From Sedimentibacter sp. zth1 (GTDB taxonomy: Bacteria > Bacillota > Clostridia > Tissierellales > Sedimentibacteraceae), in contig NZ_CP071445.1 of NCBI RefSeq assembly GCF_017352195.1, positions 1,860,001 through 1,924,000 of the forward strand: 64,000 nucleotides of DNA, in the 5' to 3' direction. The position numbers and the translations under genes are program-made. Below, one piece after another: positions 1 through 60,881 of this stretch (position 1 is its first letter; the number at the start of each line of letters is the position of its first letter). The notes beneath the pieces were generated by a model that was not told where the DNA came from, ran no database searches, and was given only the letters and a program-made list of their open reading frames with translations.

Positions 1-3000
1 CTTCCTTATTTCCATCTTCAAATGAAGGTCTTGATACTATACTTTCAGAATATTTATATAAAGATGGCTTTACAATTTCTTCATCTGTACTTGTAAACTT
101 CCAATTATAACTTGTATCTTTTCCTTCTAATTTGAATGGCATTTTTACAGATTGTGCATCAAATACTGTTTCATCTTTATTTTCAAGATAACACGCATCT
201 AAAGCTCCTTGAAGCTCTTTCTTTAGTGCATCACTAGAAGATTTATCTAAGGCTTTTATAGCAACCTCAAAATCTCTTGTCACAAAAATATCTGTATCAT
301 CATCAATAAGCTTGAGAGTTATAGCTATTTTTTTATCACCATCTTCAAATGAAGGTCTATTAACCTCAGCTCCTATATTATAAGTATTTACATCAAATGA
401 TACTAAACTACTTTTACTACTCCACTCAGTTGTATAATTACTACTATAACCTTCTTTTTTTAATTTAAAATCTTCAGTTATAGAATTTTTATCATTATCA
501 TCATAACTTAAAGTAATAAACTTATCATTTGTAACATAATTAGTATCAATATAACTATTTAATTTAACTTTTACTTCTTTTTCTTCTTTTTCCTTTAAAA
601 ACTTTTCTAATTTTTCATAAATCTCTACAATTTTATTTCCATTTACAATTTTACTTTTTCCGTTTTCACTTAAAGTACTGTAAATATTATTAAGACTTTC
701 TATTTTTCCCTGTTCTAATAAAATATTCTCATCTGTTGTTGGAAGTAAAGCTATTTCATCTTCTAAATATTTTTTACTTACAACTACAATTTTATAAACG
801 CTTTTAGCTTTTGGTGTAGAATAACTATATTTTTTTCCATCTTCAACTTCTATTTTAATTGTTCCACAGCCATTTGTTAAAGCTATATCTTTAGTACTTC
901 CACTAGTTATTTTACTGCTATTAACACTAAGCTCTGCACCTGTATTTTCAAGTATAGGGGTTACTGTTACAGTATCAAGTGTTTTATCTGTTACACACTC
1001 ATACTCTAATGTATTTTTATCAAATGTGATTTCAGCACTTGATAATTTAAGACTTGATAAGTATGCATTATATGCTTTAATCGTTAAATTTAATTCTACT
1101 TGAACTTCATCTACCTTATCAGGATAAACTAAACTTTTTACTTTTGCAGTTAAAGTCACAATTTTATCGTCTTCACCTTGATTAGGTCTCTTTGAAAGTT
1201 TAAATCCTGAATACCCATCAATACTAACAAATGATTTATCAGATGATGAAATCCATTGAATTTCTACATTATCATCAGACTTTTTAGAAGCATAGTTTCC
1301 TGTATTCCATCTTATTGTACCATCTGCATTCACCTTAGCATAGAGCGCTTTTTCAAGATTCTTTGTAACAGCATCCACTGATGTATTTTCGTTTTTAATA
1401 CCATCAAACAAATTATCTTTTATAGTATTAAGATTATTTTTTTCTGCTAAAATATCTTCGTTTGATATTGGAATAACTGTAAATTCAAATGTCTTTTGAA
1501 CTGTAGCACTTTTAATTTGTTTATGTGTTATATTAAGTGTTATAGTTATTATTTTAGGATCTTCTCCAACATTAGGTCTTTCTATAATTATTTTACCTTT
1601 ACCGTTACTTGCTTCTGCTATTAAATTATCACTTGATGTCCAAGTATAATTATAATCATATTGTTTACTTGTATCAGTAGGTTTATTTTTAACTATCTTA
1701 ATGTCTGATTTTACTGTGCTTGAGTTTTCTCCATCTGCATATTCAATATCAGTTTTAGTTAAAATCTCTTTAACTAAATCTATTGCTGCATTTTTTTCAT
1801 CATCAGTAAATTTTTTTATTGTTAAAGTAAACTCTTTTGTTGCTGTAACTTCTTTATTTTCTTTATTAGTTAATGTAAGTGTTACTATAACTGTTTTATC
1901 AACACTTTCGTCTCTATTTACATAAGCATATCCGCTTGTATTCATAATATCTATAATTTTTTCATCACTTGAGGACCACTTATAGCTATATTTAGAACCA
2001 TAGCTTTCTTTATTTAATTTTATTTTAGGTGCAATTATATTATCAAAATCTAAAAAAGTACCATTTTCATAATCTAAAATTGCTTTTTCATCTGTATAAT
2101 TTAAAGATAAATAGTTATCAAGCTCTTTTTGCAAGATAAGATTTATATTAGCTTCAATTACTTCTTGCAATTTAGTATTAAATTCAATAAGTTTTGCACC
2201 ATTTGAAATTTTTGCTTTATTTGTATCATCTAACTTGTTGTACTGTACTAAAAGTTTTTCAACATTATCTTTTTGCGCAAATATAACTTCATCTGTTTCT
2301 GTAATATCAGGAAGTTTAGCTATTTCATCTTCTAAAAATTTCTTGCTGACTATTACAATTTTATATGTTTTTGTCTGAGAAGAATCCTCTGATGAAATAG
2401 TAATATCTGTTGATCCATCTACTAAACTTACAATATGTTGTTCATTTGGATTAACTATTTCCTCATTAATTTTAATTGTAGCACCTACATTTTCAGGTGT
2501 AACAGTTATTTTAGCTTCATTTAAAACATTATCCGTTAGTATGTTATATGTTGTAGCTTTACTATCAAAAGTAAAATCAACACCTTCTATTGTAATACTT
2601 TTTAAATTTGGATTTATAGCCTTTAGTATTAAGTCTAAACTTACTTCATTTCTGCATAATTTTTTCAAATCTTCATTATTAGGATAAATTTCAGCGTATT
2701 TACCTAAAAGCTGACTTGTAAAGCAAGTTTTAAAGGAAATGTTTGTATCCTTATCAGGTCTTTTAGATAATTTCATAGTTACTTCACTAAAATATCCTGA
2801 AGGGTCAAATTTATAGCTATCCTCTGTATCATATGGATCACTTGGATTTGGAAACAAGTCATCAGGTTTAAATCCAGTTCCTGTTTGTGCCTTATAATCA
2901 TAACCCCAAACTAATTTACCATCTTTTTCGTAAACACAATATATGTCATTTAGATTATTTGCTATGTTGTCTTTATCTATGTTATTTCCATCATTTATTC

Positions 3001-5167
3001 CTTCCCATATATTTGCCTTTACTTTTTCCATCAATGCAATTTCTTCATCAATTTCAACTTGTGTAAGAGGTGCTATTGTAAATGGTATTACTTTTTCAAC
3101 TGAAACTCCTTTTTTTGTCATTGTTATTGTCACATTAGCTGTTTTTTTATTTTCACCAATATTTGGTCTTACAACTCTTGCAACATAATTAACAAATCCA
3201 CTTTTAAAAACCTCAAAGCTAAATAAAGATGGATCAGAGCTTTCGTGTGTATAAGTAACATCCTTTGGTATTTGTCTTCTTATATCAGGAACTTTAAAAT
3301 TATATCTTACATTGTTATTTTTATAATCTTCCTGTAAGCTTATTGAGCTATCTTCTATGGCTACATATTCACCGAATTTTTCTATAGTAAAATTTTCTTC
3401 TAAGATTTTACTCAATTCTGCTTTAATGATATCTGTTTCATTTCCTGAAACTGCCTTTATAGTAATTGGAACAATCTTTTCAACTGTAATTGGATCATCA
3501 CTAAAACGATATTTAAATGTTGCAGTAAGACTGGCTTCAGTATCCTCTGTTGGAATTGTAACATTTCCTTTGTATCCGTCTAGCGAGTTGCCCTCAATTT
3601 TTATAAGGTCACTATTAGATTCCCAAGTAATCCATGATTTTTTACTGCCTATTTCACTAGGTAAAATAAGCTGTGTTTTAACATTTTGCAAATCTACATT
3701 CTCATTTTTTATAGCATCCTCAGTCAATAAGTTTACATCTTGTTCAGTCATAAACTTAATTATCTTATCATTATCTAATGGAATAACAGCTATAATAGCG
3801 GACTCTTGTTCAACTGTATTTAGATTAAATTTAAAATTTACATTTACTTGTGCCACTTTGTTGTTTGTATTAGATGTATTGTCATACCAATTATCTATGT
3901 TTCCATTTGCACCAATGTATATAACAAAGCTACTTTCTTCTGAACCAATATTGTTTGCTGAAACAAATTCTACTTTAACATCACTTCTACCTTTTTTAGC
4001 AAGTGTAGAATTTAATAAAGTTACAACATTTATATCAGTGCCATATACAGGATGAATAGCACTTAAACTTTTAATAACATTTTTTAAATCAGTTTCTGTT
4101 TCTTCTAAAGTATAAGGTTTTACCTGTAATTTAAATTCTTTATTTACAGAAGCAAAGCCTTTTTTTATTGTAGCAGTAAGCGTAACTTCCAAATTTTTAT
4201 CAGAAGGATATGCTGGCCTATTTACTACTCCATTTGATGAAATTATACTTTCATCTGAGCTTGACCATTCTATGATAGTTTTTCTGCTTTCACCTCTATT
4301 AACAAGTTCAAGCTGATCTATTGCTACTATATTTTCATTTATATTTTTTATTGTTAATAATTCTTTATCAGCATTAACTACTGCTAAATCAGCATCTATT
4401 GCTCCACCGCTTGTAACTTTTACAACAGCATATGGACGTGATATTTGTTCCTTACCGTTTACCACATTTTTAGATGTAGCTGATAATATATATGTACCTG
4501 CTTTATCAAAAAAGATTTCTGCAATTCCTTCACTATTAGTAGAACTACTTGTTTCTATTGTTGCTTTATTAACATTCACAACAGATTTTATTATTTTCGC
4601 ACCATTAACAGGACTAACATTACTTGATAAATCACCCATTGAAGCATCATCTTTTAACAATTTAACTTCAAATGGCGTATTTATTGCTGTTTCATACTCA
4701 ACATGCTCAAAATACGAATATACTGTATTAACACTACCATAATAAATAGCATAAAATTCAATACTATCCCCTGGTTGCACTATATATTGGTTGGCATTAG
4801 CCCCTGTAGATGCATCAAGCATTGGAAGTTTCCCGTTAACTCTAAACATCCAATATACATCTTTGCTATTTTTGTCAGGGTAACCATTAATTTTAGATAT
4901 CATATCTATGCCATCAACAGTTGCCACCTTTTTCAAAACATCATATGCTGTCTCTCCCTGAGTAAAATTAATTGTAGTAGATGATACATCTGTTTCACCA
5001 ATTCTTTCTACTCTTATTGTTGCAGTTTGTGAACTATTTGCAACTTCCGATGCCATTGCCTCGTATGTACTACCTGGTAAAAAACCACTAAATACCATAC
5101 CAAGCACAAGCATCATAACAATAATTCTTTGTATTGCCTGTTTTCTCAATTTCTGTCTCTCCTTCAT
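1..5167 (-). CDS. Giant secreted DUF4430/Ig-repeat surface protein (C-terminus beyond window)
   Basis: The frame is open from the left edge to an ATG at 5167, giving more than 1,720 codons with no end inside the window. A signal peptide (basic start, hydrophobic segment VMMLVLGMVFSGFL) precedes a DUF4430 domain at about residues 45-135, recognised by QGETAYDVL, YWMFRVNG and VQPGDSIEFYAIYYG. This family is related to the beta domain of transcobalamin. Many atypical bacterial Ig repeats follow (W-x-SSD...G-x-V-x-RP...VTLTATI-x-KG). Two cadherin-like beta-sandwich domains occur near 2630 and 1075. The upstream cobalamin riboswitch supports a role in capturing corrinoid at the cell surface; that role is inferred. 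The cell-wall anchor, if any, is outside the window. Translation may begin at TTG 5149 rather than ATG 5167. Confidence 0.85.
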   Translation of the reverse strand, partial: MKERQKLRKQAIQRIIVMMLVLGMVFSGFLPGSTYEAMASEVANSSQTATIRVERIGETDVSSTTINFTQGETAYDVLKKVATVDGIDMISKINGYPDKNSKDVYWMFRVNGKLPMLDASTGANANQYIVQPGDSIEFYAIYYGSVNTVYSYFEHVEYETAINTPFEVKLLKDDASMGDLSSNVSPVNGAKIIKSVVNVNKATIETSSSTNSEGIAEIFFDKAGTYILSATSKNVVNGKEQISRPYAVVKVTSGGAIDADLAVVNADKELLTIKNINENIVAIDQLELVNRGESRKTIIEWSSSDESIISSNGVVNRPAYPSDKNLEVTLTATIKKGFASVNKEFKLQVKPYTLEETETDLKNVIKSLSAIHPVYGTDINVVTLLNSTLAKKGRSDVKVEFVSANNIGSEESSFVIYIGANGNIDNWYDNTSNTNNKVAQVNVNFKFNLNTVEQESAIIAVIPLDNDKIIKFMTEQDVNLLTEDAIKNENVDLQNVKTQLILPSEIGSKKSWITWESNSDLIKIEGNSLDGYKGNVTIPTEDTEASLTATFKYRFSDDPITVEKIVPITIKAVSGNETDIIKAELSKILEENFTIEKFGEYVAIEDSSISLQEDYKNNNVRYNFKVPDIRRQIPKDVTYTHESSDPSLFSFEVFKSGFVNYVARVVRPNIGENKKTANVTITMTKKGVSVEKVIPFTIAPLTQVEIDEEIALMEKVKANIWEGINDGNNIDKDNIANNLNDIYCVYEKDGKLVWGYDYKAQTGTGFKPDDLFPNPSDPYDTEDSYKFDPSGYFSEVTMKLSKRPDKDTNISFKTCFTSQLLGKYAEIYPNNEDLKKLCRNEVSLDLILKAINPNLKSITIEGVDFTFDSKATTYNILTDNVLNEAKITVTPENVGATIKINEEIVNPNEQHIVSLVDGSTDITISSEDSSQTKTYKIVIVSKKFLEDEIAKLPDITETDEVIFAQKDNVEKLLVQYNKLDDTNKAKISNGAKLIEFNTKLQEVIEANINLILQKELDNYLSLNYTDEKAILDYENGTFLDFDNIIAPKIKLNKESYGSKYSYKWSSSDEKIIDIMNTSGYAYVNRDESVDKTVIVTLTLTNKENKEVTATKEFTLTIKKFTDDEKNAAIDLVKEILTKTDIEYADGENSSTVKSDIKIVKNKPTDTSKQYDYNYTWTSSDNLIAEASNGKGKIIIERPNVGEDPKIITITLNITHKQIKSATVQKTFEFTVIPISNEDILAEKNNLNTIKDNLFDGIKNENTSVDAVTKNLEKALYAKVNADGTIRWNTGNYASKKSDDNVEIQWISSSDKSFVSIDGYSGFKLSKRPNQGEDDKIVTLTAKVKSLVYPDKVDEVQVELNLTIKAYNAYLSSLKLSSAEITFDKNTLEYECVTDKTLDTVTVTPILENTGAELSVNSSKITSGSTKDIALTNGCGTIKIEVEDGKKYSYSTPKAKSVYKIVVVSKKYLEDEIALLPTTDENILLEQGKIESLNNIYSTLSENGKSKIVNGNKIVEIYEKLEKFLKEKEEKEVKVKLNSYIDTNYVTNDKFITLSYDDNDKNSITEDFKLKKEGYSSNYTTEWSSKSSLVSFDVNTYNIGAEVNRPSFEDGDKKIAITLKLIDDDTDIFVTRDFEVAIKALDKSSSDALKKELQGALDACYLENKDETVFDAQSVKMPFKLEGKDTSYNWKFTSTDEEIVKPSLYKYSESIVSRPSFEDGNKE
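5147..5164 (-). promoter_or_regulatory. Alternative ribosome binding site and TTG start of the giant protein
   Basis: AAGGAGA lies at 5164-5158, inside the first codons after ATG 5167, and is followed eight bases later by an in-frame TTG at 5149-5147. No purine-rich site precedes the ATG itself. The TTG start gives MRKQAIQRIIVMML, still a normal signal peptide. Confidence 0.55.
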
Positions 5168-5213
5168 AATTATTAATTTATTATTTATATAAAAAGGCTT
5201 AACCTTAAAATAT

Positions 5214-5310
5214 CGCAGTCTCTCACATAAATTTGGTTCTCGTTCACCCTAAAAAACAGGGTGCAGATCTCTTGACCTACCAACCATTTTCTTTTGAAAA
5301 TGGGGTTAGG
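5214..5310 (-). repeat. Structured repeat element, leader copy
   Basis: Read on the minus strand it has CCTAACCCCATTTTC, a 4-base loop, then GAAAATGGTTGGTAGGTCA, and later ACCAAATTTATGTGAGAG. It matches the elements beside the rRNA operons at 45 and 55 kb. The first stem is changed on both sides (TTTTC with GAAAA instead of TTTG with CAAA), so pairing is kept. The middle part differs and forms its own hairpin, CACCCT/AGGGTG. It sits between the riboswitch terminator and the start codon. Confidence 0.75.
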
Positions 5311-5314
5311 GCAT

Positions 5315-5349
5315 AAAAAAAAGGGCTGTAGCAAAATTGCTACAGTCCG
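5315..5349 (-). terminator. Riboswitch expression-platform terminator
   Basis: GGACTGTAGCA, loop, TGCTACAGCCC and then eight T on the minus strand. It lies about 70 bases after the cobalamin aptamer and 150 bases before the gene, so the riboswitch probably acts by premature transcription termination. Confidence 0.85.
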
Positions 5350-5416
5350 TATTTACTGTATAAGTAATAATGAGTAGACGCACTCTACCCTAATAGCTAC
5401 CAATTACCCGTTGGAC

Positions 5417-5600
5417 TATGTTATATTCTATGCAGGTCTTCTGGCTAACGACTCATCATCTTTTTCACCTTCCCAAGGTTAACACCTCAGTGGTATATTT
5501 GCTTAAGCAAAATTTGAAAAAGACTCCTCGTATACAGCGGCGGGACCGCATCGGATTTTCACCGATTTCCCTCTTAGCCACCAATATATGGTGGAACATA
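5417..5600 (-). promoter_or_regulatory. Cobalamin (B12) riboswitch
   Basis: The minus strand shows the core signatures of the adenosylcobalamin/cobalamin aptamer: GGGAA followed by GGTGAAAATCCGATGCGGTCCCGCC (5573-5540 area), the GCCACTG-like box seen as ACCACTGAGG, and the 3' motif GCCAGAAGACCTGC at 5444-5431. TATGTT (5600-5595) can close the outer stem with AACATA (5422-5417). A promoter lies just upstream and an intrinsic terminator downstream. In known members B12 binding lowers expression of the downstream gene, here the DUF4430 surface protein. Confidence 0.93.
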
Positions 5601-5625
5601 AAATATTTATTAATTTGTCAAATCA

Positions 5626-5654
5626 ATGCTACCATCTTTAGAAATGATTGTCAA
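5626..5654 (-). promoter_or_regulatory. Promoter for the riboswitch transcript
   Basis: TTGACA at 5654-5649, a 17-base spacer and TAGCAT at 5631-5626 on the minus strand. It would start RNA about 20 bases before the aptamer. Confidence 0.7.
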
Positions 5655-5958: not shown

Positions 5959-8085
5959 ATGAAAAAATCGCACAAATTTAACGTAAAAGATAAAAAACTT
6001 GCAACAAAATTATCCATATTTATTGGAACTTTAACAATTGTTATCTTTTTCATTATGAACTTCTTTTCACTCACGGTTAGCGGAAAACACTTAAGACAGT
6101 CAATTGACAGAGAATTTACCGGTATGTGTAATCAGAATGTATTGAAAATTCAAAACATTTTAGATGGCTGTTCTTCTATTGCTAATTCTACAAGTGACAG
6201 TTTACAAGTTATGTATCAATCGAATGATACAATAACTTTATCGGAAGGAGACACAAAAGCACAATATATCAGTAAGGTAAACAAACAACCTTTATCACAA
6301 AGCAGATATGATGCAGAAAATGTACTATTAAATGCAATCTGGTCAGCCGTTGAAGATAATGAAGGTATAGTAGGTGCAGGTGTATTCTTTGAACAAAACG
6401 CTTTTGCAAAAAATATAAAAGAATATGCTCCTTATGTTATGGAGGAAAACGTTACTAATAGAACAGTTGATCGTTATACATATAGTTATTTTAAAAATAA
6501 AGACTATTATGTAGATGCAAAAGCAAAAGAAACTATGAATTTTAGTGATGCGTATGTGGATTCAAACGGAATTGCAATGTTTTCTGTTTCATATCCTATT
6601 ATTTATAATGGTCAATTTAAAGGTATAGTGCTTTTGGACTTAAAAAGCGATATTTTCAATATAATTGATATTAAAAACAATAACTATAAGTCAATGTATG
6701 TAAATTTATTGAATAATAATAATAATATTCTTTACAGTACTCATACAAGTGTTATCGGAAAAAATTTCAATGAAACTGTTGACCAAAACACTTTCAACAA
6801 TATTACTGGTGAATTAAAAAACAAATCGCACTTTTCAATTGAAACAAGCAGTGGAAAAGATAAAAAAACAAGATTTTTTACCCCTATTAATGTGGGAACG
6901 GAAACTTGGTGGGTGCAATCTGCCCTTTTATCAAGTGAGTATAATTCATTTATGTCACTAATGACAATAGTGATGATTGTTATTTCAGTAACATCTTTTG
7001 TAGTATTGATTGTAGTTATGGTTATACTTCTTAAAAAAATGCTTAAACCTGTTGATGCAATAGTTGAAGCAGCTAAAAAGATTGAGCGTGGTGATTTGAA
7101 TATTGAACTTGAAGTAAAATATCAAGATGAGATTGGTATTTTATCATCTACGTTTAATGAAATGGCTCAAAACCTTAAAACAATCATTAAAGACATTTCC
7201 TATATATTGAATGAAATGTCTAAAGGTAATTTACAAATAGAAAGCGAAAATATAAAATATTACGTAGGTGATTATAAAGCCATTATTAATGGAATAAACA
7301 CAATTACTATGAATTTAAATTCTACTTTAAATGAAATTAATATAGTTTCAGACCAAGTAAATTCAGGAGCGGAGCAAGTATCATGTGCTGCGCAGGCTCT
7401 TTCACAAGGTGCAACCGAGCAGGCATCTTCTGTTGAAGAACTATCAGCAACAATGACAGAAATTACTGATAAAATTAAGCATAATGCAGAAAAGGCTGGA
7501 ACAGCAAATACTCTTTCCCAAGAGGCAGGAAATGAAGTTGTTATTAGCAATCAAAAGATGAAAGAAATGTCATGTGCTATGTACGATATTAAAGAAAAGT
7601 CCACTGAAATCGGAAAGATTATCAAAACAATTGATGATATTGCATTTCAAACTAACATACTTGCCCTTAATGCAGCAGTTGAGGCAGCTCGTGCAGGTTC
7701 AGCAGGTCAAGGCTTTACCGTTGTTGCAGATGAGGTTCGTAACCTCGCACAAAAATCTGCAGAAGCCGCAAAAAATACTACTATTTTGATTGAAGATGCT
7801 GTTGAAGCAATTGAAAATGGTTCAACTCTTACAGAAGAGGCAGAAAAGGCTCTTATTATAGTAGCAGAAAAGACAGGTGAAGTGAAAGAATTGATAAATG
7901 AAATTTCTAATAATTCACAGGAACAAGCAAATGGTGTTGAACAAGTATCCTTAGGTATTGAACAAATTTCAGCTGTAGTTCAGACAAACTCTGCTACCTC
8001 TGAAGAAAGTGCAGCAGCTTCAGAAGAACTTTCTGGACAATCCAATATGCTTCAAGAACTTTTTAGACAGTTTAAACTTCGTTAA
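5959..8085 (+). CDS. Methyl-accepting chemotaxis protein with extracellular Cache-type sensor
   Basis: 708 residues. A cytoplasmic N-terminus, TM1 (about 19-40), a roughly 290-residue extracellular domain of the dCache kind, TM2 (about 333-358), a HAMP region (about 355-410) and a long methyl-accepting signalling domain. The highly conserved hairpin tip reads [18 protein letters not shown], then [20 protein letters not shown]. It would signal to CheA/CheW at the inner face of the membrane; none of those genes is nearby. There is no C-terminal CheR-docking pentapeptide. GGAGGAG ten bases before the ATG fixes the start. The ligand is unknown. A terminator follows, so it is probably monocistronic. 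Confidence 0.95.
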
Positions 8086-45546: not shown

Positions 45547-45596
45547 ACTTTCCCTATTCTTAAGAGCCAGATTGTTTTTTTCTTGCATAAAAATAA

Positions 45597-45713
<117 letters not shown>

Positions 45714-45826
45714 TATTTATAACTCGTAATTTAAAAATTACTTCGTTATATTGTATATTAAGTTATCATTAAATTGAAAGTTTGAACTTTCAAAATTGTA
45801 CAGGAAAAACTTTTTGAGATTTGTCT

Positions 45827-45923
45827 GACTGCATCACAAATCTATTTACTCACTTACGTTCGTATAGATTTGGATTTCGCTGGATCTGACCTACCATCCA
45901 TTTGAGAATCAAATGGGGTTAGG
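45827..45923 (-). repeat. Structured repeat element in 23S-5S spacer, operon 1
   Basis: Inverted relative to copies 1-4. Minus strand: CCTAACCCCATTTG, ATTCT loop, CAAATGGATGGTAGGTCAG, then CCAAATCTAT and ATAGATTTG. Loops differ from other copies while stems are kept. It begins ten bases after the 23S 3' end. Confidence 0.85.
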
Positions 45924-45932
45924 CTCATTATT

Positions 45933-48860
<2,928 letters not shown>

Positions 48861-48868
48861 TCTTAAAC

Positions 48869-49020
48869 TCGTTCTTTTTCATTTATGCTGTGTCTCTCGT
48901 CACTTCGAATGCTCACATACTATTCGTATGCTCCGCTTCTCCGCTTCTCTGCTTCTCTGCTTCTCTGCTTCTCTGCTTCTCTGCTTCTCGTTTCGTGCCT
49001 AAATAAAAAATCACTTCGTT
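48869..49020 (-). repeat. rRNA spacer module (with tandem repeat), operon 1
   Basis: Starts AACGAAGTGATTTTTTATTT on the minus strand, contains hairpin GAGCATAC GAATA GTATGTGAGC and ends AATGAAAAAGAACGAG. Related modules occur at 49029, 49238, 55681, 58917 and 51170. Confidence 0.65.
48936..48991. repeat. 8-bp tandem repeat (VNTR)
   Basis: Seven units of CTTCTCTG; the middle five are perfect and the outer two end in CG or GT. The matching place in operon 2 has no repeat. Confidence 0.9.
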
Positions 49021-49028
49021 TGTTACTC

Positions 49029-49092
49029 GGTCTTTTTCATTTATTCTTCGTTGGTCATCCTCAAGATTTCCAACTTTGCCTAAATAAAAAAA
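49029..49092 (-). repeat. rRNA spacer module, partial copy
   Basis: Shows the conserved ends (CTAAATAAAA and TCTTTTTCATTTAT on the plus strand) with a shorter, different middle. Confidence 0.5.
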
Positions 49093-49237
49093 AGACTTAG
49101 TAATTTGCAATCATCAGTTCTTAATTGTGCGTCTTTACACAACTATTTTTTGGTTACTCTTGTAATTCTTATCCGCTTTCGCTTCAATTCTTTACTTAGT
49201 TATATTGTTTTTTTTGATGTTTTCTCTCGTTTCAAAC

Positions 49238-49350
49238 TTGTTCTTTTCAATTTATACTTCGTTGATCGTCGTCTCCGGTGCTCACATATTATTCATATGC
49301 TTTGCTCCTCGACTCCTCTCGCCTTGTCTAAATCAAAAATTACTTCGTTT
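49238..49350 (-). repeat. rRNA spacer module, second full copy in operon 1
   Basis: Minus strand AACGAAGTAATTTTTGATTT ... AGCATATGAATAATATGTGAGC ... TTGAAAAGAAC. Same plan as the module at 48869 with diverged sequence. Confidence 0.6.
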
Positions 49351-49394
49351 GTTTTTTCCTATACAATTTTCAAAGTTCAGCGATTTACTTTTAT

Positions 49395-49470
49395 TGGTGG
49401 AGATGAGGAGAGTCGAACTCCTGACCCCCTGCTTGCAAGGCAGGTGCTCTCCCATCTGAGCTACACCCCC
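49395..49470 (-). tRNA. tRNA-Ala (UGC)
   Basis: 76 nt with encoded CCA: GGGGGTGTAGCTCAG, anticodon loop CTTGCAA (anticodon TGC), GTTCGACTC T-arm. The acceptor stem has the G3-U70 pair that identifies alanine tRNA. It lies in the 16S-23S spacer and is absent from operon 2. Confidence 0.97.
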
Positions 49471-49622
49471 ACATCAGCAAATCTTTTATCCACTACTCAA
49501 ATTCTCACTTGAGTAGCAATGAAACAGCATAAGTTCCTTGTTTCGAACATGCTTTTCTGGCGTTCAAACCAGAAAAGCGACATTGAAACAAAATGTAAAC
49601 TAATACATTTTGTTTTCTGTCT

Positions 49623-51140
<1,518 letters not shown>

Positions 51141-51414
51141 TATCTGTTCTCAAGCTTACGCTTGGCACTAACTCGCTATTTTTGTTATCTGCTACGTCAC
51201 TGCTCTTCATCACTCGCTTACGTACTTTAGCACGCGCGCTCGTTCTTCATCGCATTCCTTGCATATAGCAAAACTATCTTCGTTAGTTGTTGTTGTTTTT
51301 ACTGTTTTTTGTTCTATTTCTATACTCTTGCGAGTACTGAAACTAAAGGTTGTTCTTATGCTGTTTTATTGTCTAAGGTTCGTTTTTTTTTGCTGTTTCA
51401 ACGACAGCTTTATT
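51141..51414 (-). other. rRNA leader of operon 1 with an inserted module
   Basis: Compared with operon 2, about 105 bp at 51170-51295 are extra and resemble the spacer module at 55681 (TACGTCACTGCTC, CGTTCTTCATCGCATTCC). The shared leader parts (GAGTACTGAAA, GCTGTTTCAACGACAGC) flank it. Confidence 0.6.
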
Positions 51415-51443
51415 AGTTTATCATAATTATTATAGCTTGTCAA
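51415..51443 (-). promoter_or_regulatory. rRNA operon 1 promoter, proximal
   Basis: TTGACA (51443-51438), 17 bases, TAAACT (51420-51415) on the minus strand. Confidence 0.8.
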
Positions 51444-51507
51444 GATTTTTTCAGAAAATTCTTTTTTTATATTTCAATATTCATCAATCAATTTTGACAA
51501 CTTCACT

Positions 51508-51536
51508 ATTATACTTTATTTGTACTAATTTGTCAA
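51508..51536 (-). promoter_or_regulatory. rRNA operon 1 promoter, distal
   Basis: Perfect TTGACA (51536-51531), 17 bases, perfect TATAAT (51513-51508). Tandem promoters are usual for rRNA operons. Confidence 0.9.
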
Positions 51537-51743
51537 GAATTCTTATTAATTAAATTTTCATTTAATAATCTTATTCTTATTAACAATTAATAAATAAAAC
51601 TTTCTTTTTGAAAGCTTTATTATAATAACATAGTAGTTAACTAATGTCAATATATTATTGCATTGTATATTTTACCAATAGCATTAATGCATACAAGCAT
51701 ATTCTATATATACTGTATTTTTACTAATCGTTGATTATTTAAA

Positions 51744-51792
51744 ATAAAAAAATAGCATAGTGTATTTTATATTTAGATATACTATGCTATTT
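51744..51792 (-). terminator. Terminator of the MoxR operon
   Basis: On the minus strand AAATAGCATAGT and ACTATGCTATTT form a long stem followed by seven T. It isolates the operon from the rRNA promoters downstream. Confidence 0.85.
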
Positions 51793-51795
51793 ATA

Positions 51796-53070
51796 TTAAT
51801 TTCTATTGTTGATTCTATTACACAATTCTACACATTTATCTACATCTTGCTTAGACATATTTTCAGTAATGTTATATCTTGCTTTTATATATATTTTTCT
51901 CAATTCCTGTTCTGTATCATTGTTCATGTTTATTACTGATTTATATTTATTTGAAATTGATGCAGTTGTGTCACAAATTTCTAATTTAACATTTCTTTTT
52001 TTACAAAGTGACAAAAATTTATTATAATAATGCCTAATAGCATCTCTTGAATTTTTCAAACTTTTTTTATGCTTAGTTTTATTTTTGGTTACTTCTATCT
52101 TTTCTCTTGTCTGCTCAACGGCAATATAGTTTTTTTGCTTTAGATTTTTATTATGTAAAATATTGATAATTGCTATGAAAATTATCAAAACACATACTAC
52201 AATTAAAACATACATTGCATATGTAAACCAATCCACATCAAAAACATTCGCCTCTTCTTCACTAGAAAGTGTTACTGCTTCGTTTGCAACATTTAACTTA
52301 CTTATATTTTCAGCAATTGTTTCTTTATTAGTTTCATGTATATTTTTACAAAGAATTCTAACTTTATCGCCTAAGTCCAATAAATTAATATTATTAAATT
52401 TACTACTTATAAATACTAGGATATTACCTATACAAGATACTATAAAATTAATAATTAGCAATAATAAATGCAATAAAATTGTTGGTAGTTGTTTTACAGT
52501 TGAAAAAAAACATACTCCCATAAATAAAATAAAATCTCTTAATTGTTTTTTCTTATAAATCATATCATTAGTTTTGTATCTATTATCTCTTAATAACCTC
52601 AACAATAATACACCAACAACTAAAAATATTAAATAATATACTCCTGCATATGATAAATGTTTTAGGCAATAATTATGATCACTAAGAAGCGTTATTCCAA
52701 AAAATATGATACTAGCTAATACTAAAACTTTAAATGACTTTGCCAAATCTTTATGTTTTATATTATATAGTTCTCCATTTATAATGTTACCTAAATAAAA
52801 CCATATTGCTACAAATTGTATCTTAAATGCCGTGTTTTCAATAAATAACATTAATAAAATAGGAAAGGTCAATGCTAGTGTTTTAACGTTTTTTTTATAT
52901 TTTTCACTTTTTTTAGAATTAGTTGTTATAAAAGTAATTATACAGCTCAGTAATAATACAATAAAACCTAAATAGCTTGCTTTCTTATTGGAGAATAAAC
53001 AAATTAAATATGTTGTTATAGCATAAATATAGCTGATATTGAATATTGTTTTATAAAAGTTAGCTAACAT
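51796..53070 (-). CDS. Membrane protein with DUF4129-like C-terminus
   Basis: About 424 residues. Seven or so helices in the N-terminal half, a helix at about 300, a Lys-rich linker and a C-terminal helical domain (DAIRHYYNKFLSLCKKR ... LRKIYIKARYNI) like DUF4129. In MoxR-DUF58 clusters the third gene is often a transglutaminase-like protein with this arrangement; the transglutaminase core is missing here. ATG 53070 with GAGGAGG was chosen. It overlaps the DUF58 gene by 11 bp. Confidence 0.75.
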   Translation of the reverse strand: MLANFYKTIFNISYIYAITTYLICLFSNKKASYLGFIVLLLSCIITFITTNSKKSEKYKKNVKTLALTFPILLMLFIENTAFKIQFVAIWFYLGNIINGELYNIKHKDLAKSFKVLVLASIIFFGITLLSDHNYCLKHLSYAGVYYLIFLVVGVLLLRLLRDNRYKTNDMIYKKKQLRDFILFMGVCFFSTVKQLPTILLHLLLLIINFIVSCIGNILVFISSKFNNINLLDLGDKVRILCKNIHETNKETIAENISKLNVANEAVTLSSEEEANVFDVDWFTYAMYVLIVVCVLIIFIAIINILHNKNLKQKNYIAVEQTREKIEVTKNKTKHKKSLKNSRDAIRHYYNKFLSLCKKRNVKLEICDTTASISNKYKSVINMNNDTEQELRKIYIKARYNITENMSKQDVDKCVELCNRINNRN

Positions 53071-54169
53071 GAATAGTATCCTCCTCGCAGTAATTATTTG
53101 CATACAATGGATATACATTAATGTTTCTTTTATTCTTCAAATAATTTAGATGAATCAATGTTTTATCATCTTGTGAACACGATATATATATAATAGAATT
53201 ATTAGAACCCGAATTTTTCATTGTACTATTATTCAAATAGTCAAAAAATATTTCTATTGTACATACAGGGAAATATGTACAACTACCAAGTAATTCTAAA
53301 ATATTAATAAAGTTTTTGTTCCCCTGTCCTGAACTATTTATATTACTAATATTCTTATCTCTGTTAATAATACATGCGTTTGTTATTAAATTATATGCTA
53401 CCTTTTTTTGTTCTAAAAACTGGCATACTGTCCTTGTCATAGCAAAACAAGTTTCTAAGTTTTCATGTGATTTTCCAAAATCATTTTTATAAGTTATATC
53501 AAGAACAACTGTTACAGACTGTTCTTGAGTATAATCATATTCTTTTACTATTGGTGAATTTCTTTTTGCTGTTTGATTCCAACTAATAGATTTAAGAGGT
53601 TCAAGTCCAGTGTAATCATGGTATCCTAATACCAAAATAGGATCTCGAATGAGCATTCTATTAACTAAAAAGTCTCCGTAGAAATTGCTTAAAGCTATTA
53701 ATAATTTTTTATTTTCCAATAACTTTGGATATATTATAATATTTTTATTTTGTTCAATTTCTCTATTCGGCTTATAAAATCCTAAAAAATCAGAACTATA
53801 TATTGTACACCCTTTAAAAGCATATACTCCCCTTTTATTTATAGAAACTTTCATTTTTCTTCTTATCAATTCTCTTCTTCTTATGAAAATTGCAGTGGTA
53901 AGCTCTACACTGTCTTTGTTCTTTAATATGCTTAGCTTATCACTATTGTTTATTGATATGTTTTCTGGTAATTTTTCAGTTATCTCTAAATTTGGTATAA
54001 AAATTAATCCATGATTTGATAATAGGCTATTAATTTCAAACATTTCCGATACTTCAGCGCTTCTGACTGAAGGTTTACAAGAGTATTGTATTTTATCAAG
54101 CTTTATAATAAGAGATATTTGTTCCACTACGAAAGCTAAAAATATTAATACAAAAATAAATTTACCCAA
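53060..54169 (-). CDS. DUF58-domain protein
   Basis: About 369 residues. An N-terminal helix, a beta-rich middle, and the DUF58 signature DYTGLEPLKSISWNQTAKRNSPIVKEYD at about 195, followed by a VWA-like domain starting VTVVLDITY. It works with MoxR ATPases, probably in envelope or protein-complex maturation. GTG 54184 overlaps the GGAGG site; TTG 54169 eight bases after it is the better start. Confidence 0.87.
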   Translation of the reverse strand: MGKFIFVLIFLAFVVEQISLIIKLDKIQYSCKPSVRSAEVSEMFEINSLLSNHGLIFIPNLEITEKLPENISINNSDKLSILKNKDSVELTTAIFIRRRELIRRKMKVSINKRGVYAFKGCTIYSSDFLGFYKPNREIEQNKNIIIYPKLLENKKLLIALSNFYGDFLVNRMLIRDPILVLGYHDYTGLEPLKSISWNQTAKRNSPIVKEYDYTQEQSVTVVLDITYKNDFGKSHENLETCFAMTRTVCQFLEQKKVAYNLITNACIINRDKNISNINSSGQGNKNFINILELLGSCTYFPVCTIEIFFDYLNNSTMKNSGSNNSIIYISCSQDDKTLIHLNYLKNKRNINVYPLYANNYCEEDTIHVS

Positions 54170-54183
54170 GCTTATTTCCTCCA

Positions 54184-55134
54184 CTATTTAATAGTATCTT
54201 CTAAAGGTACTTTTATTTCATTAACCATATTATTAAATGTCCTGCTATTTTCTTCGTAATTTGACACTCCTCTAAATGTTAATCTGTGAATTAGTATTAA
54301 CGGCGCAAGACTTTTTATATCTTCTGGAATAACAAACTTTCTTCCACTAATAGCTGCTTTAACTTGTGAAGCTTGATAAAGCGCTATAGCTCCTCTTGTG
54401 GATGAACCTAAAAGTATATTGTCATTTGTTCTTGTTTCCTCAATAATATCCATTAAATAGTTACATACATCCTCGCTCACTTCTACTTGATGGAAACTTT
54501 TCTTAAGATCGCTTATTTCTTCTAATGTAACTACACTATTTAAATTATTTAAAATATCTATTGAGCTTTCTCTTTTGATAACATCCATTTCTTCATTTCT
54601 TTTCATATACCCTAAAGATAATCTCATCATAAACCTGTCCATTTGTGCCTCTGGTAAAGGAAATGTACCGTATGATTCAATAGGATTTTGTGTTGCAGCA
54701 ACCATAAATGGATCATCAAGTTCAAATGTTTTTCCGTCAATTGATATTTGTTTTTCTGCCATTGCCTCTAATAAACTTGACTGTGTACGTGGTGTTGCAC
54801 GATTTATTTCATCTGCTAACACTAAGTTTGAAAATATAGGACCTTTTTTAAATTCAAAGTCTCCATTTTTAACATTATAAAAATTAATGCCTGTAACATC
54901 TGATGGCATAACATCAGGAGTGAACTGAATACGTTTGAATTTAGCACTTATACTTTTAGAAAATGCTCTAAATAACATTGTTTTTCCCGTTCCAGGAACA
55001 TCCTCGAGTAAAATGTGTCCTGAACATAAAAAACAAATTACTATATTAGATATTTCCTCTTCTTTACCAACAACTACTTTTGAACAATTATTTACTATTT
55101 TTTTATTAAATTCAACAAATTTTTCTGTTTCCAT
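54184..55134 (-). CDS. MoxR-family AAA+ ATPase
   Basis: About 316 residues. Walker A EDVPGTGKT, Walker B LVLADEINRATPRTQSSLLEAM, sensor 1 VAATQNPIE and the arginine-containing PEAQMDRFMMRL segment. It acts as a chaperone-like ATPase with the DUF58 partner encoded next. ATG 55134 with GAGAGG is preferred over ATG 55161. Its promoter begins only 15 bp after the repeats that follow the second 5S gene. Confidence 0.94.
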   Translation of the reverse strand: METEKFVEFNKKIVNNCSKVVVGKEEEISNIVICFLCSGHILLEDVPGTGKTMLFRAFSKSISAKFKRIQFTPDVMPSDVTGINFYNVKNGDFEFKKGPIFSNLVLADEINRATPRTQSSLLEAMAEKQISIDGKTFELDDPFMVAATQNPIESYGTFPLPEAQMDRFMMRLSLGYMKRNEEMDVIKRESSIDILNNLNSVVTLEEISDLKKSFHQVEVSEDVCNYLMDIIEETRTNDNILLGSSTRGAIALYQASQVKAAISGRKFVIPEDIKSLAPLILIHRLTFRGVSNYEENSRTFNNMVNEIKVPLEDTIK

Positions 55135-55160
55135 TTTTAAACCTCTCGACATTTTTGACA

Positions 55161-55189
55161 ATTATAACACAATTAGATTTTTTTTACAA
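55161..55189 (-). promoter_or_regulatory. Promoter of the MoxR operon
   Basis: TTGTAA (55189-55184), 17 bases, TATAAT (55166-55161), giving a short leader of about 20 nt. Confidence 0.75.
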
Positions 55190-55210
55190 CTAATACCAAT
55201 AAAAAATGAC

Positions 55211-55230
55211 AAAAAAATAATCTGGCGATG
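55211..55230 (-). repeat. 5S rRNA 3'-end stub, operon 2
   Basis: CATCGCCAGATTATTTTTTT on the minus strand, again directly next to a structured repeat. Confidence 0.7.
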
Positions 55231-55239
55231 GCTGCTTGA

Positions 55240-55374
55240 CCTAACCCCATTTGTTGTCTTAGTATACTTTCTTTCATAGCAAATGGTTGGTAGGTCAGAC
55301 AGCAATGAGTACCAAATCTATGCGAGCATGCTTTTTGCGAACAAATAGATTTGCTGTACGAAACTGCGCTTGCT
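55240..55374 (+). repeat. Structured repeat element, copy 5
   Basis: 135 bp. Matches copy 2, with GCATGCTTTTTGCG in the second loop instead of GCATGGTCTTCGCG. Confidence 0.87.
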
Positions 55375-55503
55375 CCTAACCCCATTTGCATACTTATATA
55401 CTATCTTTCAGAGCAAATGGCTGGTAGGTCAGACAGCAATGAGTACCAAATCTATGCGAGCATGCTTTTTGCGAACAAATAGATTTGCTGTACGAAACTG
55501 CAC
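55375..55503 (+). repeat. Structured repeat element, copy 6
   Basis: CCTAACCCCATTTG with a changed first loop; GCAAATGGCTGGTAGGTCAG and intact second stem. Ends 51 bp before 5S. Confidence 0.87.
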
Positions 55504-55553
55504 ACTTTCTCTATTCTTAAGAGCCAGATTACTTTTTCCTTGCATAAAAATAA

Positions 55554-55670
<117 letters not shown>

Positions 55671-55680
55671 TATTTATAAC

Positions 55681-55795
55681 TCGTTCTTTTTCATCAACTC
55701 TACGTCATTACTCATTCTTTCGTCAGTTGCGTACCTAATGTACGTGCCTTCCTCATTCATTCGCATTTCTTGATTTGATAAAAAATTACTTCGTT
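55681..55795 (-). repeat. rRNA spacer module in 23S-5S spacer, operon 2
   Basis: Insertion absent from operon 1, where only the ends TAACTCG and AAAAATTACTTCGTTAT remain. Contains TACGTCATTACTC and TCATTCGCATTTC like the operon 1 leader insert. Confidence 0.6.
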
Positions 55796-55874
55796 ATGTT
55801 ATATATTAAGTTATTATTATATTGAAAGTTTGAACTTTCAAAATTGTACAGGAAAAACTTTTTGAGATTTGTCC

Positions 55875-55971
55875 GACTGCATCACAAATCTATTTACTCA
55901 CTTACGTTCGTATAGATTTGGATTTCGCTGGATCTGACCTACCATCCATTTGAGAATCAAATGGGGTTAGG
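55875..55971 (-). repeat. Structured repeat element in 23S-5S spacer, operon 2
   Basis: Nearly identical to the operon 1 spacer copy at 45827 (one C/T change just before it). Confidence 0.85.
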
Positions 55972-55980
55972 ATCATTATT

Positions 55981-58908
<2,928 letters not shown>

Positions 58909-58916
58909 TCTTAAAC

Positions 58917-59029
58917 TCGTTCTTTTTCATTTATGCTGTGTCTCTCGTCACTTCGAATGCTCACATACTATTCGTATGCTCCGCTTCTTAGCTCCTCGTT
59001 TCGTGCCTAAATAAAAAATCACTTCGTTT
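58917..59029 (-). repeat. rRNA spacer module, operon 2
   Basis: Copy of the module at 48869 without the CTTCTCTG array. The rest of this spacer lacks tRNA-Ala. Confidence 0.65.
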
Positions 59030-59363
59030 ATTGTTAATCATCAGTTTAATTGTGCGTCTTCACACAACTATTTTTTGGTTACTCTTGTAATTAATATTTG
59101 CTTCCGCTTATATTTTTTACTTAGTTTTATTGTTTTTTTTGATGTTTTTCTCGTTTGTTTTTTCCTATACAATTTTCAAAGTTCAGCTTGCTTTGAACAT
59201 TTTGTTGCCAAAATTTTCTCTGCATTAGTCTTAATACTCAAATTCTCACTTGAGTATCAATGAAACAGCATAAGTTCCTTGTTTCGAACATGCTTTTCTG
59301 GCGTTCAAACCAGAAAAGCGACATTGAAACAAAATGTATTACTTTACATTTTGTTTTCTGTCT

Positions 59364-60881
<1,518 letters not shown>

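Follow-up and report, generated by a model that had tools for sequence, protein, structure and literature searches.

Why should a cobalamin riboswitch stand in front of the gene for a giant cell-surface protein, and what would such a protein have to do with B12? The question is raised by the genome of Sedimentibacter sp. zth1, at one end of the 64-kb stretch of DNA analysed here (hereafter the window), which comprises bases 1860001-1924000 of one 3.13-Mb contig. The features with which the argument begins are the following:

5626..5654 (= L005 17654-17626), minus strand: sigma-70-type promoter-like site, a consensus match
5414..5616, minus strand: cobalamin riboswitch aptamer (RF00174), covariance model, 122.4 bits
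5316..5350, minus strand: intrinsic terminator, likely the expression platform, with an 8-bp stem (CTGTAGCA/TGCTACAG), a loop of 4 and a T8 tail
1..5167, minus strand: 5' 5167 bases of the gene for a giant SLH surface protein, an ORF that starts at 5167 and is open past base 1
5048..5167, minus strand: predicted signal peptide, residues 1-40, a hydrophobic core followed by AMA-SE, recognised by eye
4751..4987, minus strand: N-terminal DUF4430, residues 61-139, with the fold of the transcobalamin beta domain and a shortened hairpin insert
4118..4378, minus strand: aBig_2 repeat (atrophied bacterial Ig), residues 264-350, the best of six, Pfam
830..1060, minus strand: residues 1370-1446, a cadherin-like beta sandwich; the complete protein has three

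A complete cobalamin riboswitch in the leader

The leader is a full cobalamin riboswitch. The match to RF00174 (window 5616-5414, minus strand) scores 122.4 bits where the cut-off is 31.5, has an E of 3e-30 over the 64 kb and takes in model positions 1-189/189, that is, a complete aptamer; a terminator hairpin of -14.4 kcal/mol (5345-5316) sits between it and the giant gene. The full aptamer and terminator that a preliminary description of this DNA had placed upstream of the giant are therefore upheld, and the covariance model accepts the aptamer without difficulty. The promoter described in front of the aptamer fares less well: a consensus site is indeed present at 5654-5626 (TTGACA, 17 nt, TAGCAT, with the TG of an extended -10), and such matches are equally frequent in shuffled sequence, so that the site is not separable from chance. 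Cobalamin riboswitches are regarded as OFF switches (PMC11477304), with which the terminator agrees, and we infer the same direction of control here, in which B12 would repress the giant through its leader. Transcribed divergently on the plus strand (window 5959-8085) is a 708-aa methyl-accepting chemotaxis-type gene, whose start lies about 300 bases from the riboswitch.

Architecture of the giant surface protein

As read from the genome, the whole giant gene (G000:C1:1855895-1865167) encodes 3090 aa, and 4105 of its bases lie outside the window start. Pfam and the full-length gene agree with the earlier picture of a very large secreted protein with Ig repeats and DUF4430 as its first domain (Pfam match at residues 71-139 with 40.2 bits, the cut-off being 23.8). 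Over the entire chain the DUF4430 family (PF14478) scores 78 bits in all, in two stretches, the second and better of which (residues 2583-2677) follows a PQQ/BamB-like propeller at residues about 2151-2500; the C-terminal end carries three SLH domains (PF00395, 117 bits). The bulk of the chain consists of Ig-like, cadherin-like and propeller repeats, and a family-profile search of the chain found no alpha toroid. Membership of the giant in the transcobalamin/intrinsic factor/haptocorrin family was rejected because the alpha toroid and the beta domain are not in one chain.

Six aBig_2 repeats are also found in another giant ORF elsewhere in the genome (3389 aa; G000:C1:3098677-3101451, plus strand), which is without DUF4430 and has no cobalamin riboswitch match nearby. 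The window also contains two near-identical rRNA operons (16S, 23S, 5S; 45596-60881, minus strand), arranged head to tail about 10 kb apart, with a tRNA between 16S and 23S reported by Rfam in the first operon only.

A predicted B12 uptake locus

Beyond the window, on the same strand and directly 3' of the giant, come in order a second riboswitch and the genes for a toroid+SLH protein, a membrane DUF4430 protein, EcfT, EcfAA' and an S component. The giant had been described as an unusual target, apart from BtuFCD or cob genes; gene order instead identifies it as the putative first part of a B12 uptake locus with an ECF transporter, and not as an isolated odd target. The second cobalamin riboswitch (1855747-1855567; L005 7567-7747, minus strand; 41.8 bits) stands before the toroid gene with its own terminator and promoter-like site. 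Its aptamer is degenerate, with the P10-P11 region unmatched and other conserved core parts kept, and its function may be weakened by the loss of P10-P11.

The 537-aa neighbour combines a toroid with the fold of the transcobalamin alpha domain and three C-terminal SLH domains (120 bits), while the 216-aa DUF4430 protein (PF14478, 53.5 bits) has a hydrophobic anchor at its N-terminus. EcfT (296 aa) matches CbiQ weakly, below the cut-off, and the fused EcfAA' (553 aa) matches TIGR04520 with 357 bits. The S component (247 aa) matches CbrT (6fnp_A), with E 4.5e-9 for the single sequence and 2.3e-20 for a profile built from six relatives, and in the PDB search nothing but CbrT comes near. By sequence, then, the S component is a CbrT homologue and the transporter of the CbrT type; CbrT itself binds cobalamin and cobinamide with nanomolar affinity and transports both (PMC5997447). 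BtuFCD was rejected as the target of the window riboswitch, there being no BtuF, BtuC or BtuD at the locus. Inspection of translations showed that two other cobalamin riboswitches of the genome precede BtuFCD-type genes, followed at one of these loci by corrin-ring genes, and the possession of corrin-ring genes and of two BtuFCD-type loci already raises doubt about the need for a third uptake route, a point against reading the giant's locus as a corrinoid trap.

Structural likeness to animal B12 carriers

The DUF4430 copies of the locus are not equivalent. In the N-terminal copy of the giant the hairpin insert, whose counterpart in transcobalamin contacts the ligand, is short by about 12 residues, and the family-profile score of this copy is only 21 bits, against 80 bits for the C-terminal copy. 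As far as sequence can tell, the hairpin region is kept in the latter and in the 216-aa membrane protein, both of which appear canonical. The predicted structure of the N-terminal domain is of middling confidence (pLDDT 70.9), and Foldseek against the PDB places haptocorrin, transcobalamin and intrinsic factor at ranks 1-12 (best E 2.1e-4); the VIA Z of 9.7 for transcobalamin exceeds the 8.7 of other beta-grasp folds by a slight margin. Modelling of this domain therefore bears out the link from DUF4430 to transcobalamin drawn in the preliminary description as far as the fold is concerned, with the reservation that this copy is without part of the ligand-contacting hairpin. The same reservation applies to the argument that riboswitch and domain both point to B12: the CbrT-like S component agrees with it, and the N-terminal DUF4430 on which it relied is shortened.

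In the PDB, a profile of 44 bacterial DUF4430s from these loci matches transcobalamin-2 best (E 8.4e-5), followed by haptocorrin (E 0.003) and then, weakly, intrinsic factor (E 0.3). The profile had to be limited to the domain because a PDB search with the whole membrane-protein alignment gave chance matches only. Ranked in the midst of the animal B12 carriers, a solved bacterial structure also matches the DUF4430 fold: PDB 3u7z (Ruminococcus gnavus RUMGNA_00854, annotated 'putative metal binding protein'), which might in fact bind corrinoids.

A two-domain model was built from L083, a genome that belongs to the Tissierellales and to the same family, in which a riboswitch-controlled protein of 1343 aa has a toroid adjoining DUF4430. 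The model (pLDDT 89.8, pTM 0.85) finds only transcobalamin, intrinsic factor and haptocorrin at Foldseek ranks 1-15, over about 450 columns and hence both domains (E 9e-12 to 9e-9), and the next other protein follows at E 2.5e-5. The rmsd of these matches is high, which suggests that the domains are placed differently in the model and in the B12-bound animal proteins. With VIA-align the toroid alone was aligned, squalene-hopene cyclases and sugar epimerases came top (Z up to 24), and no transcobalamin was among the 50 matches listed, an outcome that leaves the Foldseek result standing. A PDB search with the whole toroid+SLH alignment returned S-layer proteins and squalene-hopene cyclases, not transcobalamin.

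Recurrence across genomes

DUF4430 is present in 16 of the 41 genomes of the order, and a same-strand cobalamin riboswitch lies at most 10 kb upstream of 36 of the 51 DUF4430 matches in these 16 genomes, against 0.64 expected; the counts are not independent, since several DUF4430 domains share one operon, and 13 of the 16 genomes contribute to the pairing. Matches without a riboswitch are mostly at contig ends, and nhmmer added two further riboswitches. The order toroid+SLH, DUF4430 membrane protein, EcfT, EcfAA' and S is kept in most of the DUF4430 genomes.

A scan of GTDB genomes with the membrane DUF4430 protein yielded at least 583 relatives, of which the top 80 loci belong mainly to Paenibacillus and Clostridia. 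A riboswitch profile of this group, which recovered 21/21 held-out examples, detects a B12 riboswitch in 64 of the 80. Within these 80 loci, 35 of the 54 DUF4430 ORFs of at least 1000 aa sit no more than 1.2 kb behind a B12 riboswitch, so that further riboswitch-DUF4430 pairs exist in both samples. Rfam confirmed the B12 riboswitch in 7/7 loci checked and found no other Rfam RNA family in those seven. In two relatives (L014 98-173 and L040 7813-7927), riboswitch-like leaders precede the toroid gene, where the group profile matches and the Rfam search is silent; these leaders are possibly variant cobalamin aptamers.

The 54 large ORFs also differ in where the toroid resides. Twenty-two giants end in a toroid, and in none of these 22 does a separate toroid gene follow. 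Another 21, in which the C-terminal end is not a toroid, are followed by such a gene, and the remaining 11, of which some are truncated at contig or locus ends, show neither arrangement. This fused-or-separate distribution suggests joint action of giant and toroid. The architecture most like that of the Sedimentibacter locus is found in L071, with a riboswitch, a 1652-aa DUF4430-propeller-DUF4430-SLH protein, toroid+SLH, membrane DUF4430, EcfT and EcfAA'S. Up to four toroids or four DUF4430 copies per giant occur in L013, L029, L044, L091 and others, as if for multivalent binding.

Discussion

Sedimentibacter sp. zth1 probably gathers B12 from its environment by means of a transcobalamin-like trap on the cell surface, and we regard it as likely that the locus encodes a B12-repressed, S-layer-anchored corrinoid trap of this kind, from which a CbrT-type ECF importer is supplied. 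With adenosylcobalamin in good supply, the leader RNA would fold so that transcription ends at the terminator; with little of it available, the giant would be made, exported and fixed in the S-layer or cell wall through its SLH domains. There, DUF4430 domains on a long Ig/cadherin/propeller stalk would hold corrinoids at the cell surface, and the corrinoid would be clamped against, or passed to, the alpha-type toroid of the SLH neighbour and the membrane-anchored DUF4430 protein. It would then reach the CbrT-like S component, with import driven by the EcfT-EcfAA' module. The candidate ligand of the surface proteins, to judge from their domains, is B12, and the clamp or hand-over between chains, like the order of the relay, is our proposal. 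What the preliminary description had called a Gram-positive surface corrinoid trap gains from the SLH domains, the CbrT-type ECF transporter, the toroid and the dozens of genomes with this arrangement, and loses in that the N-terminal DUF4430 is incomplete.

In transcobalamin, the alpha and the beta domain each bind cobalamin when isolated, and the two come together around it (PMC5599065, PMC11107200); separate DUF4430 and toroid chains could therefore clamp a corrinoid between them. More tentatively, and with somewhat less than even confidence, the system may be a split transcobalamin, with beta domains on a wall-spanning stalk and on a membrane anchor and the alpha toroid on a separate SLH protein; to the same tentative degree, the corrinoid itself might clamp the chains together and pass down the wall to the CbrT-type importer. 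Loosening of one clamp partner could release the corrinoid to the S component.

The alternative that survives best, unlikely as we judge it, is that the giant has a structural or adhesive role in the S-layer: its DUF4430s would be docking or spacer modules without corrinoid binding, and the giant would be co-regulated for another reason, such as keeping the toroid at the proper depth within the wall, while the downstream toroid, membrane DUF4430 and ECF transporter alone would handle B12. A degenerate N-terminal DUF4430, a chain made up mostly of Ig-like, cadherin-like and propeller repeats with no toroid, and the many divergent DUF4430 copies in relatives are what such a protein would lead one to expect. 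However, the C-terminal DUF4430 of the giant is canonical at 80 bits, many relatives have riboswitch-controlled giants that combine toroid and DUF4430 (in the one modelled, transcobalamin is the nearest structure), and isolated beta domains of transcobalamin do bind cobalamin (PMC5599065, PMC11107200).

Somewhat less probable again is that the substrate is cobinamide, another corrinoid precursor or breakdown product, or cobalt, and not intact cobalamin. The T component does match CbiQ weakly, cobalt transporters are also found under cobalamin riboswitches (PMC11477304, PMC3766115), and cobinamide is accepted by haptocorrin and CbrT (PMC5599065, PMC5997447). Yet the match of the S component is to CbrT, with none to CbiM or CbiN, a metal ion needs no large two-domain clamp, and uptake of cobinamide would be a shade of the corrinoid-trap explanation without contradicting it. 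Cobalt transport as the main role was rejected because the S component is CbrT-like, not CbiMN. That the riboswitch adjoins the giant by chance, or is a decayed, non-working relic, is very improbable in spite of a promoter-like match not above chance and a partly degenerate second leader, given a complete 122-bit aptamer with a terminator and a pairing that recurs far above chance in 16 genomes (36/51 against 0.64 expected) and in 35/54 large DUF4430 genes, counts on which we reject chance pairing.

The idea of a surface B12 trap is not new, having been foreseen in 2007 by Burroughs, Balaji, Iyer and Aravind (PMC1796856), who described a transcobalamin-like SLBB clade in Gram-positive bacteria, proposed B12 scavenging as its role and further proposed a transfer of B12 carriers from such bacteria to animals. 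Their proteins resemble ours in that a secreted SLBB domain is joined to a toroid, to Ig-like domains or to a beta-propeller, and their operons in having CbiO- and CbiQ-like genes together with a second extracellular SLBB paralogue. The giant of the window differs in having two beta domains and no alpha toroid, and while, in their account, such bacteria are usually without B12 synthesis, the Sedimentibacter genome has corrin-ring genes. The words 'riboswitch' and 'S-layer' are absent from the text of that paper, which predates the characterisation of CbrT. To the 2007 prediction the present analysis adds the pairing of these genes with riboswitches, an S component of the CbrT type, the matches at the level of structure, and the finding that giant and toroid are either fused or separate; the supplements of a 2013 riboswitch regulon study (PMC3766115) may already list some of these genes. 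Judged by titles and abstracts, none of the papers found on DUF4430 concerns bacterial B12 uptake. In searches of open-access main texts for transcobalamin-like proteins of bacteria, the 2007 paper alone turned up, and no later experimental work.

Transcobalamin, intrinsic factor and haptocorrin share with these bacterial proteins the beta-grasp fold of DUF4430 and the alpha toroid, and several relatives carry both domains in one chain and in the same order. In the genome of the window, by contrast, alpha and beta domains are on separate SLH- or membrane-anchored chains, there is no endocytic receptor, and sequence identity to the animal proteins is about 15 %. Animal carriers depend on proteolysis for the release of B12 (PMC11107200). 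The importer resembles ECF-CbrT of Lactobacillus delbrueckii (PMC5997447, PDB 6FNP) in its homologous S component, EcfT and two EcfA ATPase domains. It differs in that a dedicated energy module is in one operon with surface capture proteins, and in that the two EcfA domains are fused, in many relatives to S as well. In the Gram-negative Bacteroides, B12-capture lipoproteins pass B12 to a TonB-dependent receptor, and their capture domains are not known to be related to those considered here. The likeness is that these surface-exposed lipoproteins also catch B12 ahead of the importer (PMC6143338). A further parallel is the S-layer-anchored haem protein of Tarlovsky 2010, as cited in PMC10327494, which catches a tetrapyrrole-type cofactor and passes it inward; in that citing account it uses a NEAT domain and haem in place of DUF4430 and a corrinoid, and the parallel implies no homology.

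Capture of corrinoids outside the membrane of Gram-positive bacteria is little studied, and, as far as we found, the case for a descent of animal B12 carriers from such bacteria has so far been a sequence argument only. Here four lines meet at one locus: a riboswitch, a transcobalamin-type beta domain, a toroid and a CbrT-homologous S component. Because the arrangement recurs in culturable genera, Paenibacillus above all, function and ancestry are directly testable with small soluble domains. A split transcobalamin, if that tentative reading is true, would be a Gram-positive counterpart of the relays that handle haem and a living relative of the form from which the B12 carriers of animals arose, one in which the cofactor is released to an importer without proteolysis.
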